DNA of 64,000 nt from Castellaniella caeni NBRC 101664 (GTDB lineage Bacteria; Pseudomonadota; Gammaproteobacteria; Burkholderiales; Burkholderiaceae_B): positions 62,001-126,000 of the forward strand of contig NZ_BCWN01000005.1 of NCBI RefSeq assembly GCF_001592225.1. Direction: 5' to 3'. Made by a program: the position numbers and the translations under genes. Numbering within the stretch: the stretch's first letter is position 1; each line of letters begins with the position of its first letter. A model generated the notes under the pieces. It was not told where the DNA came from and did no database searches. It saw only the letters and a program-made list of their open reading frames with translations. Positions 18,575 through 64,000 of the stretch are shown one piece after another.

Positions 18575-19642
18575 GTGACTCAGCTGAAAAACGATGTGTT
18601 CCTGCGCGCCCTGATGCGTGAGCCTGTTCCCTACACGCCCATCTGGATGATGCGCCAGGCAGGCCGCTACTTGCCCGAATACAACCAGACGCGGGCGCAG
18701 GCCGGGTCGTTTCTCGGCCTTGCGCAAAACCCCGAATACGCCTGCGAGGTCACCTTGCAGCCCCTGCGCCGTTTTGCCCTGGATGCCGCCATCCTGTTCT
18801 CCGATATTCTCACCGTACCCGACGCCATGGGCCTGGGGCTGCAGTTCGTGACGGGCGAAGGGCCGCGCTTCGAGCGGCCCCTGCGCGACGAAGCCGCGAT
18901 CGCCGCCCTGCGGGCACCCGATCTCGACCGCTTGCGCTACGTCTTCGACGCCGTGTCGCTCGTCCGCCGCGAGCTCGACGGCAGCGTGCCGCTCATCGGC
19001 TTTTCGGGCAGCCCCTGGACACTGGCCTGCTACATGGTCGAAGGGCAGGGCAGCAGCGACTACCGGCAGATCAAGACGCTGCTGTATCAACGCCCCGACC
19101 TGCTGCACCGCATTCTCGGCCTCAACGCGCAGGCCGTGGCGGCTTATCTCAATGCCCAGATTCAGGCGGGCGCCCAGGCCGTCATGGTGTTCGACAGCTG
19201 GGGCGGTGTCCTCGCCGACGGCCTGTTCCAGCAGTTTTCTCTGGATTACACGCGGCAGGTCGTGGCCGGCCTGCAGCGTGAGCACGAAGGGCGGCGCGTG
19301 CCCGTCATCGTCTTCACCAAGGGCGGCGGGCAGTGGGTCGAAGCCATCGCCCAAAGCGGTTGCGACGCGGTGGGCCTCGACTGGACGGCCAACCTTGCCG
19401 CCGCGCGCCAGCGCGTGAACGACCGGGTGGCTTTGCAGGGCAATCTCGACCCCATGGCCTTGTTTGGCGGAGACGCCGCCATCCGGGCCGAAGCGCGCCG
19501 CGTCCTGGCTGATTTCGGGCCGGTGGGCCAGGGGGGGCACGTTTTCAACCTGGGGCATGGCATCTCGCAATTCACGCCACCCGAGGCCGTGGTTTCCCTG
19601 GTCGATGAAGTGCATACCGCCAGCCGGGCGTATCACGGCTGA
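18575..19642 (+). CDS. hemE: uroporphyrinogen decarboxylase
   Basis: Removes four acetate carboxyls from uroporphyrinogen III to give coproporphyrinogen III in haem biosynthesis. The 355 residues are full length and include [13 protein letters not shown] with the conserved Arg, [13 protein letters not shown] with the catalytic Asp, [23 protein letters not shown] and the C-terminal FNLGHGI. The GTG at 18575 is used as start; no ATG is near. Two mutually exclusive hairpins lie in the short leader before it. A strong terminator follows the stop. Confidence 0.96.
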
Positions 19643-40798: not shown

Positions 40799-40808
40799 GA
40801 CTGCAGAA

Positions 40809-40864
40809 ATCGCGCCGATTTGCCTGATCCGCTTGCGGGCGCGCCATAAATCCAGCTAAAGAGG
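40809..40864 (+). ncRNA. SAM-II riboswitch
   Basis: The segment matches the compact SAM-II aptamer in order: TCGCGC, GATTT, a variable loop, TTGC, GGCGCG, ATAAA, then AGCTAAAGAGG. The first stem is TCGCGCC with GGCGCG, and the loop GATTT/AGCTAAA elements form the conserved pseudoknot. The 3' end contains the AGAGG ribosome site 5 bp before the metX ATG, so S-adenosylmethionine binding should block translation initiation. SAM-II is best known from alphaproteobacterial methionine genes; here it precedes metX, the expected target. Confidence 0.85.
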
Positions 40865-40868
40865 TTCC

Positions 40869-42119
40869 ATGACCCCCGTTGCCTTTTCTTCGCCTTCCGT
40901 TTCCGATGTCACGCCCGCTCAGTCGGCGCGCCCGCCCGTGCCCACGGGCAGCGTGGGTTACGTGACGCCCCAATTTCTCGCTTTCGACGAGCCGCTCACC
41001 TTGTCCAGCGGCCAGGTGCTGTCGTCCTATACGCTGGCGGTCGAAACCTACGGCACGCTCAATGCCCAGTGCAGCAATGCCGTGCTGGTGTGCCATGCTC
41101 TCAATGCCTCGCATCACGTGGCGGGCATGGACGCCGACGATCCCGACCAGATCGGCTGGTGGGACAACATGGTGGGCCCGGGCAAGGCCGTGGACACCGA
41201 CCGCTTCTTCGTCATCGGGGTGAACAACCTGGGCTCGTGTTTTGGTTCCACCGGGCCCACGACGCTCAATCCGGCCACCGGCGAGCCTTGGGGGGCGGCG
41301 TTTCCGCTGCTCACTGTCGAAGACTGGGTGCATGCCCAGGCGCGGGTGGCCGACCACTTTGGCATCCAGCGCTTTGCCGCCGTCATGGGCGGTTCGCTGG
41401 GCGGCATGCAGGCGCTCAGCTGGGCCATCACCTGCCCCGAGCGGGTGGGTGACTGCATCGTCGTCGCCAGCACGGCGCGGCTGACGGCGCAGAACATCGC
41501 CTTCAACGAAGTGGCGCGGCGCGCCATTCTCACCGACCCCGATTTCCACGACGGCGATTACTACGCGCACGGCGTCGTGCCGACGCACGGCCTGTCGGTG
41601 GCGCGCATGGTGGGCCACATCACCTATCAGTCCGACGAGGTGATGGCTTCTAAATTTGGCCGAGCCCAGCGGGCGCCCAACGCCAACGGCGACTACCGCT
41701 ACAACTACGACGTCGAATTCGAGGTCGAGTCCTATCTGCGCTATCAGGGCGAGAAGTTCTCGCGCTATTTCGATGCCAACACCTATCTGCTGCTGACGCG
41801 CGCGCTGGATTACTTCGATCCGGCGCGGGCCACGGGGGGCGATCTGGCGCGCGCCCTGGCGCCAACGCAGGCGCGGTTCTTATTGGTGTCATTTTCCACC
41901 GACTGGCGCTTCGCCCCCGAACACTCGCGGGAGATCGTCCAGGCGCTGCTCAAGAACCAACGCGAAGTCACCTACGCCGAGATCGACGCGCCGCACGGGC
42001 ACGACGCTTTTCTGCTGGGCGACCCGCGCTACCACGCCATCGTCCAGGGCTACTACGACCAGATCGCCAGCCGCCTGGGCCTGGGCGCGCGGCAAAGCAC
42101 CACAGGAGTCCTCGCATGA
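40869..42119 (+). CDS. metX: homoserine O-acyltransferase
   Basis: Acylates homoserine at the start of methionine biosynthesis; whether it uses acetyl-CoA or succinyl-CoA cannot be decided by eye. The 416-residue alpha/beta hydrolase fold has [26 protein letters not shown], the nucleophile elbow [23 protein letters not shown] (catalytic Asp region) and [10 protein letters not shown] (catalytic His). A SAM-II riboswitch controls the ribosome site. metW overlaps its stop by 4 bp (ATGA). Confidence 0.95.
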
Positions 42120-62530: not shown

Positions 62531-63187
62531 ATGATAGCTACTCGGGGTCTTGTTCGCAGCGTGACGGTGGTCAGCTGCCTGGCTTTGTTGTCGGCGTGCG
62601 CCAATATGTCTCCGCAGGGACAGCATACTGCCGTGGGGGCGGGGGCCGGCGCGGCACTTGGCGCGGGGCTGGGGGCGCTCATCGGCGACAGCAGCCAGTC
62701 GGCCCTGATCGGCGCGGGGATCGGCTCGGTGGTGGGCGGCGTGGTGGGCTACAACTGGAAGGGGATCAAGCAGGACGTGGAAAAATCCGGCGCATCCGAT
62801 CTGGGGGTGGCGGTGATCGAAATGCCGGACGGCACGCTGAAGGTGAACATCCCCAGCAATGTGTCGTTCGATACGAACAAATCGGCGCTCAAACCAGCGC
62901 TGCTGCCGGTGCTCGACAGTGTGGCGCGGGCTCTGAACCAGCATCCCGAGCTGCGGGCGAAGGCTATCGGTTATACCGATTCCACGGGCACGGATGCCAT
63001 CAATATTCCGCTGTCGCAACGGCGCGCGGCGGCGGTCACGCAGTACCTGGCGGGCCAGGGGGTGGCAGCCACGCGGCTGACCTCCGAAGGCCAGGGGGCG
63101 GCCAATCCGGTGGGTGACAACAGCACGACCGAGGGTCGGGCGCTGAACCGCCGGGTTGAATTGTTTCTGTATGCGGTGAAGCAGTAG
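62531..63187 (+). CDS. OmpA-domain lipoprotein with glycine zipper (YiaD-like)
   Basis: Outer-membrane lipoprotein of 218 residues. A lipoprotein signal ends in LLSAC (Cys about 22). A glycine-zipper segment follows (GAGAGAALGAGLGALIGD ... GAGIGSVVGGVVGY), then a C-terminal OmpA-like peptidoglycan-binding domain (NVSFDTNKSALKPALLPVLDSVARAL ... GYTDSTGTDAINIPLSQRRAAAVTQYL ... NRRVELFL) with conserved Asp and Arg. AGGAG lies 8 bp before the ATG. Likely tethers outer membrane to peptidoglycan. Confidence 0.92.
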   Translation: MIATRGLVRSVTVVSCLALLSACANMSPQGQHTAVGAGAGAALGAGLGALIGDSSQSALIGAGIGSVVGGVVGYNWKGIKQDVEKSGASDLGVAVIEMPDGTLKVNIPSNVSFDTNKSALKPALLPVLDSVARALNQHPELRAKAIGYTDSTGTDAINIPLSQRRAAAVTQYLAGQGVAATRLTSEGQGAANPVGDNSTTEGRALNRRVELFLYAVKQ

Positions 63188-63283
63188 AAGGTTCCGTCTC
63201 TGTTTATGGGCAGCGGCTCTCGAACTCTCGCAGCTGGGTTCTTGAGGCGCCCTGGGCAGGCACGCTCCCTCTGCCGACCGTGA

Positions 63284-63408
63284 CTGGCGGCCCTTCGGGC
63301 TTCCCGCATCTTCCTCGTCCGGCCGGGCGTCGCCCTATATCGTCCCTGCGGGCCGATCGAGGGCGCCGACTGCCCCCGGCCTCCCTTCGGAAGCCTGCGG
63401 CGCCAGTC
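63284..63408 (+). repeat. 125-bp inverted repeat, left copy
   Basis: From CTGGCGGCCCTTCGGGCTTC to CGGCGCCAGTC. It matches the reverse complement of 63756-63880 across its whole length with a limited number of substitutions; the 40-bp centre around CCCTATATCGTCCCTGCGGG is identical. Confidence 0.9.
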
Positions 63409-63577
63409 AATGTCGGCGCCGGGAGCATGCCAACCCAGGGCTTGGCGTATCTTGGCGCATTCTTATGTTGAGACAGAGACAGCGTCGAGGCGGGTGCTGA
63501 AGCAGGTGTCGGCATCGAAGCGGGCTTGGTGCCGAGCGGTGGTGCCGAGCGCGTTTGGCGTCGAAGCAGATTCGGCA

Positions 63578-63679
63578 CAAAGGCGAACCCAGCACAAAGG
63601 TGATCCCAACGCAAAGGTGATCCCAACACAGAGTCAGCCCCCACACAAGGGCAGCCTCCACACAAAGGCAGCCACAGCA
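63578..63679 (+). repeat. six 17-bp tandem repeats
   Basis: Units at 63578, 63595, 63612, 63629, 63646 and 63663, for example CAAAGGTGATCCCAACG and CAAAGGTGATCCCAACA. All are exactly 17 bp with decaying similarity from left to right. The unit length is not a multiple of three, so it is unlikely to be a coding repeat. Confidence 0.85.
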
Positions 63680-63723
63680 CCCAAGCGGGCTCGACGGCTG
63701 CCTTGGCATGTTGCAGGCCCCGG

Positions 63724-63913
63724 CGGGGTTGTGTCAGGTGGCGCAGCGACCATCCGACTGGCGCCGGATGCTACCGAAGGGAGGGTGGGGGCAGTCGGCG
63801 CCCTCGATCGGCCCGCAGGGACGATATAGGGCGACGCCCACCCGGACGAGGTAGATCCGGGAAGCCCGAAGGGCCGCCAGGAGTGTGTCGCTGCGCCACC
63901 TGACACAACCCCG
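63724..63913. mobile_element. MITE-like element with 27-bp inverted termini enclosing the right 125-bp copy
   Basis: 63724-63750 (GTTGTGTCAGGTGGCGCAGC core) and 63887-63913 are perfect 27-bp inverted repeats. They enclose the right copy of the 125-bp repeat. The whole is 190 bp and has no coding capacity, like a miniature inverted-repeat element. No clear target-site duplication is visible, so the mobile-element reading is tentative. Confidence 0.45.
63756..63880 (-). repeat. 125-bp inverted repeat, right copy
   Basis: Reverse-complement partner of 63284-63408, 347 bp away from it. Confidence 0.9.
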
Positions 63914-63985
63914 TCGGCGCACCAAGACAACCCTCTCAGCGCACCAAGACACCCCCCCTCAGCGCAGCAAACGACACCGATGTTC
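63914..63985 (+). repeat. degenerate 22-24-bp tandem repeats at the window edge
   Basis: GCGCACCAAGACAACCCTC, then GCGCACCAAGACACCCCCC, then GCGCAGCAAACGACAC: three consecutive decaying units. Confidence 0.6.
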
Positions 63986-64000
63986 CCGGAGAATCGTTCA

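Follow-up and report, generated by a model that had tools for sequence, protein, structure and literature searches.

The gap between a gene of the OmpA family and thiC in the 64,000-nucleotide stretch of DNA analysed here (the window) is filled by two convergent units of a patchy, widespread family of hairpin-forming intergenic DNA repeats. The repeat is probably a non-autonomous dispersed hairpin element, tolerated mostly 3' of genes, in which template switching during replication homogenises the arms and inverts the spacer. The pattern of stem evolution is well supported; template switching is the mechanism that we infer.

The unit pair and its family

Both the 125-nt inverted pair and the 6 x 17-bp array between its arms, as given in the preliminary description, are real. 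The arms (63284-63408 and 63756-63880) are 93% complementary across a gap of 347 nt, and TRF resolves the array into two adjoining 17-bp arrays of about three units each (63576-63630 and 63622-63673), which lie without strand in the spacer at 63576-63673. Two features can be added to that account, namely a 22-bp array at 63905-63970 and, around each 125-nt unit, an outer inverted repeat of its own with arms of 34-41 nt. In unit 1, on the plus strand, the locus-specific 5' outer arm (63249-63289) and the 3' outer arm (63401-63441) are 80% complementary and surround a core at 63284-63408, matched by the covariance model at 63286-63404. In unit 2, on the minus strand, the 3' outer arm (63717-63750) and the 5' outer arm (63887-63920) are 94% complementary, and the core at 63756-63880 is matched at 63760-63878. 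With an outer inverted repeat around it, each unit therefore folds into a single long hairpin of about 190-205 nt. A GTTCTTGA box read in the sequence (63238-63245, plus strand) adjoins unit 1 on its outer, 5' side, and similar boxes adjoin several relatives; the 22-bp array, three units on the minus strand, lies on the outer side of unit 2 and overlaps its arm, as it also does in the copies of a related genome, G727. The upstream gene (62531-63187, plus strand; Pfam OmpA, E 1.1e-18) has its stop codon 61 bases before the first outer arm, and the convergent thiC ends at 63998-64000 on the minus strand and continues past the window (ORF; Pfam ThiC_Rad_SAM, E 7.7e-183), so that the pair occupies the space between gene ends at 63187 and 63998.

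The fold prediction proposed in the preliminary description gave, with the units folded as DNA, minimum free energies of -69.9 (z -6.1) and -85.6 (z -9.1) kcal/mol for the two copies, and none of 200 shuffles was as stable for either; RNA folds of the strands tried have a similar shape. The hairpins are not due to chance, since no shuffle is as stable and since other genomes contain homologues whose stems covary.

The suggestion of a repeat family proved right. Rather than the single strain-restricted copy that would have pointed to a one-off duplication, there are multiple copies in many genomes: by DNA search the unit was found at five places in its own genome and in 9 of 10 genomes of the genus, and the covariance model R1, built from 22 sequences, finds it in its own genome (six copies), throughout the genus (10/10 genomes), in the family (40/268 genomes, 19/43 genera) and in the order (23/150 genomes). 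Five family genomes (G650, G709, G710, G727 and G730) each have at least 12 R1 matches, 12 being as many candidates as were scored in each. A looser pattern with 73 positives among 398 genomes was dropped for counts because its reversed control also matched in many. At three loci from other families (L097, L098, L117) a TTACTTTCTTTTGC...AAAGAAAGTAAC-type palindrome lies ahead of the unit. Elsewhere in the window, a SAM_alpha riboswitch at 40802-40880 (plus strand) scores 37.7 bits, barely above its gathering score of 36.

Pairing and co-change of the stems

In the genus alignment of 22 cores, double compensatory changes occur in 23 of 32 pairs, and the 704 cells comprise 682 Watson-Crick pairs, 22 mismatches and no G-U pair, with 119 double vs 0 single standard-pair changes. 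The control was RNase P RNA from 26 genomes within the same order, handled identically: G-U fills 199 of its 2308 cells with content, and single changes number 111 vs 360 double ones. Fisher p is 2.6e-24 for G-U and 1.2e-12 for single changes, values that, like the order-level one below, are only a guide because the cells are not independent. At the level of the order, in an alignment of 38 sequences fitted to the covariance model, double changes occur in 29/32 pairs and 92.6% of cells are paired, a value reached in 0/500 shuffles and compared with at most 52.2% for slid partners; G-U accounts for about 26 of 1134 cells (p 3.7e-14 vs RNase P). As G-U is absent from the genus cores and G-T is a mismatch in DNA, stem pairing looks to be maintained at the DNA level. 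The structured RNA envisaged in the preliminary description is thus disfavoured, by the contrast of 0/704 with 199/2308 and by the Rfam search, in which nothing within 63200-64000 matched, either at gathering score or at E values up to 1.

The outer arms are largely locus-specific, since each matches its own partner far better than the arms of other elements: across 44 genus elements, own-arm complementarity has a mean of 23.1 vs 7.0 between elements, and 41/44 lie above the 95th percentile of the null (10). The 23 cross-scores of at least 14 comprise 15 between orthologous junctions, five between copies within one genome and three others. Younger copies in G727 share their arms, and so do G650 copies of the same subtype, of which there are two; the G727 arms include paired multi-base variants such as GAAGCTCAG/CTGAGCTTC vs GCAGGTCAG/CTGACCTGC. 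Taken with the locus specificity seen in the genus, this suggests that the element arrives with common arms, which then drift in concert. In 16 pairwise orthologue comparisons, 86 pairs underwent double Watson-Crick changes, but 22 turned into G-U and 107 into mismatches; correction between arms is thus incomplete, although alignment error contributes to these numbers. A regular expression meant to split the cores into modules matched 0/44.

Mobility, inversion in place and proposed template switching

Of the G727 matches (at least 12), 11 were read and are near-identical copies. By eye, they follow a composite plan of array, unit A, spacer, reversed unit B and array, in which the first array consists of 11-21-bp units such as TTCTTATGACGTTGTC in one to about nine copies and the last of reverse-strand units of the GTTCTTGCGAAAGTCGGGTGTG type; unit B, which was recognised by eye and has no R1 match, is absent from one of the 11 copies (L226). 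In a 20-kb stretch of G727 with three copies, two have no counterpart where the orthologous junctions lie in G725 and G726; in G728 one of these junctions is likewise empty, and a long hairpin of another kind occupies the second. The near-identical copies and the orthologous empty sites show recent mobility of the element in at least one relative. No target duplication was readable at the empty sites of G725, G726 and G728, which are too diverged, and no terminal repeat, parent transposon or transposase was identified. A 7-kb "autonomous element" considered in G004 (C57:295133/302070) looks like ordinary-sized ORFs between two separate single copies.

The window pair has the plan of the G727 composites in an older state, with GTTCTTGA at unit 1 and the 22-bp array over the unit 2 arm. 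At the ompA-thiC junction, compared by eye, both units are present in G006 and one in G005, and the junctions of G001, G002 and G008 are only about 16 to 57 bases long and have no unit; in G004, G007 and G009 the neighbour is a different one. The same junction with two, one or no units therefore records gain or loss of the element at a fixed place. Other hairpins were noticed by eye in, beside or in place of such elements. One with long arms and a different core occupies the site of a G727 element in G728 (L271; G728:C11:284700-285950), and several hairpin families may therefore share junctions. A second family with the tip CCTCAGG and a shared CTCATCC side is seemingly nested at different points inside two elements, one in G008 (L160:2569-2770) and one in G004 (L100, about 600-730), and the stem of this second family shows paired differences between them; a small hairpin repeat, CGGATTA...TAATCCG, flanks both outer sides of the G727 composite at 19208 (L237).

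Beside yidC (Pfam), 197 bases are inverted between G005 and G006 at 98.0% identity, within surroundings that are collinear and 94.9% identical over 3149 bases; G002 has the same orientation as G005. The arm pairs of this element include 32 unchanged, two changed on both sides and none changed on one side, with nine lost to gaps in the whole comparison. A second flip separates G002 from G003 (L154/L156) and a third locus separates G005/G006 from G001/G002/G003, so that both orientations occur at three loci with collinear flanks; among orthologue pairs with flanks of at least 94% identity, 2/8 are flipped. Short inverted segments may have been placed the wrong way round in draft assemblies, although the G006 assembly consists of a single contig. 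The "recombination substrate" of the preliminary description holds in the sense that an identical change can occur in both arms and that the element has been flipped in place between related species. The ompA-thiC element (L087/L145) differs by 17% between G005 and G006, whereas its flanks differ by about 1.5%, a disparity that calls for exchange between copies and not template switching alone; the G005 element has modules resembling, by eye, other G005 copies, and such exchange at this junction is suggested.

The arrangement of units within pairs is nearly constant. Close pairs (up to 1200 bases apart) in genus and order, from 10 genomes, are plus then minus in 23/23 cases, and four of five further ones among the family matches listed have the same order, which makes 27/28 convergent, a count that is not of independent events as some pairs are copies of one another; the exception among those listed, in G726, is minus then minus at 891 bases. 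This near-constancy argues against free flipping, which would randomise pairs, and convergent pairs are either recent or required to be convergent.

Template switching between inverted repeats has been described in yeast as a source of arm homogenisation and spacer inversion (PMC8604942) and has been proposed for RNA stems (PMC8794818); the combination of homogenised arms and inverted spacers found here is the signature described in yeast (PMC8604942). Under the preferred reading, the full form would be two convergent hairpin units, with many copies being single units, and each unit would comprise an array of short tandem repeats, in many cases accompanied by a GTTCTTG-type box, then an outer arm, the structured core and the second outer arm. 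The near-identical copies and empty sites show that the element spread as a whole, by a putative moving enzyme, and its stems would drift after insertion. Template switching within the hairpin, the presumed cause of the co-change and inversion observed, would copy changes from arm to arm and sometimes invert the spacer, so that an old copy would end with its own paired arms in either orientation. The element would persist chiefly 3' of genes, in many cases between two convergent ones, and its hairpins might also act on transcript ends there.

Alternative explanations and known systems

Of the other explanations, the one that survives best, though we consider it unlikely, is a structured-DNA recombination site, at which a dedicated recombinase or HUH-type transposase would move and flip a folded single strand. 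Integron integrases act in this way on attC sites, and RAYTs on REPs. The Watson-Crick-only covariation in the genus, the inversions in place, the recent amplification and the near-constant convergence of pairs would all agree with it, as would a tip motif, AACTCG-hairpin-CTCARACAG, found in distant bacteria. The pattern RAACTCG-GCCTTCGGC-CTCARACAG occurs at 21 places, in Sulfuricella, Azoarcus, Rhodoferax, Deefgea, Pontibacterium, Motiliproteus and Arenicella and in MAGs labelled Nitrospirae, Acidobacteria and, in one case, Lachnospiraceae, labels that in MAGs can be wrong. At 11/21 of these sites the flanking stem scores above the 95th percentile of a null made from mismatched combinations, which related members raise; however, the tip motif was the search pattern itself. 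Unpaired columns and loops, moreover, were no better conserved than stems when this was sought. Phage and plasmid records gave no match at the level of distant blastn, and viral contigs searched with the OmpA protein yielded nothing; IMGVR_UViG_2881247448_000001 (L195) is the only viral contig that exactly matches the degenerate tip pattern.

Searches for a partner enzyme among Y1_Tnp and Y2_Tnp domains also speak against a recombination site. RAYT-type Y1_Tnp is absent from the own genome, present in 2/10 genus genomes and not enriched with the element in the order (16/23 element-bearing genomes vs 78/127 others, p 0.49, assuming that two samples of 150 genomes are identical, as their handles suggest). 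IS91-type Y2_Tnp is likewise absent from the own genome and occurs in 29/150 genomes of the order, among them three of the 23 that bear the element (G054, G071, G131); a Y2 transposase could be supplied from outside. No partner enzyme of the RAYT or IS91 type was found in this way. A truncated IS200-like ORF that adjoins one element (L058; labelled partly by eye) was taken as chance. A bolder version, which we find a shade more doubtful, is a new class of mobile element present in several phyla, in which a novel recombinase would recognise, move and flip the folded single strand and the convergent pair would form the ends.

Less probable again is an RNA element, either a 3' UTR structure or a bidirectional terminator or stabiliser for the transcripts of convergent genes. 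It would account for the position of the repeats: the 37 genus elements, counting each composite or single copy as one, lie at 17 convergent, 15 tandem and two divergent junctions (three unclassified), and 49 gene junctions of the window comprise 10 convergent, 28 tandem and 11 divergent. The preference for convergent genes (17/34 vs 10/49, p 0.008), with fewer elements at divergent junctions (2/34 vs 11/49, p 0.06), is a tendency only, because the gene caller was home-made, orthologues were counted separately, and some orthologues are classed differently through calls that look wrong. The tendency also fits tolerance of the element 3' of genes. A further point in favour is that 63150-64000 of the window has no T-tailed terminator-like site, and that T-tailed hairpins present in G728, G726 and (by eye) G725 are not seen at one G727 junction; a terminator scan nevertheless gave two weak sites at that G727 junction (shuffles mean 1.0) and missed the hairpin seen by eye in G725. 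The genus alignment without G-U, the negative Rfam search and single elements that face either way at the same locus argue against an RNA element; the hairpins may have some influence on transcript ends. Least probable is that the repeats are functionless old palindromes whose pairing is kept by mutation bias only, which would suit the drifting arms, the 3/44 elements with arms no better than the null, the patchy distribution and the loops no better conserved than stems, but not a core that is recognisable across families with 29/32 pairs covarying, nor the 27/28 convergent pairs.

The family amounts to a natural repeated experiment on the evolution of bacterial hairpins, with paired stem changes, hardly any G-U intermediates and spacer inversions, and its many loci make the template-switching account of compensatory change directly testable. 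It also cautions against taking covariation by itself as proof of a functional RNA. The repeat is, in addition, unannotated and gives rise to spurious reading frames.

No description of a convergent double-hairpin repeat architecture was found in the open-licence full texts searched. The repeat is MITE-like and ERIC-like in life style, being dispersed and non-coding with recent near-identical copies (G727, G650). ERIC is a structured intergenic repeat of similar length with no gene of its own, to which the present family is likened by description; we know of no locus-specific arms or convergent composite in ERIC, and by description this sets the two apart. Integron attC sites, folded single-stranded DNA with conserved unpaired parts, offer a further likeness, again by description. 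REPs often occur in inverted pairs. As palindromic extragenic repeats, REPs and REPINs resemble the present family, but their units are given as 20-40 bp (PMC3733652), whereas the cores here are 117-134 nt and carry arms in addition; the own genome has 0 Y1_Tnp matches, unlike a RAYT-associated system, and 0 Y2 transposases, unlike the source of an IS91-type derivative. Among other intergenic families, Bor-1 of Bordetella bronchiseptica is 117 bp long (PMC2267715), and ERIC and similar intergenic palindromes are named in the account of the Beta-proteobacterial repeat element, BRE (PMC3110155). BRE is described there as a GC-rich, mostly intergenic repeat of betaproteobacteria, including Azoarcus and Rhodoferax, with mobile-element features and a copy number that varies at a locus. 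In these respects it is like the present family, and BRE of Bordetella is a possible relative, compared by description only; its copies of about 75-91 bp are arranged in tandem in the same orientation (PMC3110155), in contrast to the close pairs here, nearly all of them convergent. The closest likeness in process is to template switching, with which the family shares arm homogenisation, spacer inversion and compensatory double changes, and which has been described for yeast genes and RNA genes (PMC8604942, PMC8794818), whereas here it would act on a dispersed bacterial repeat.
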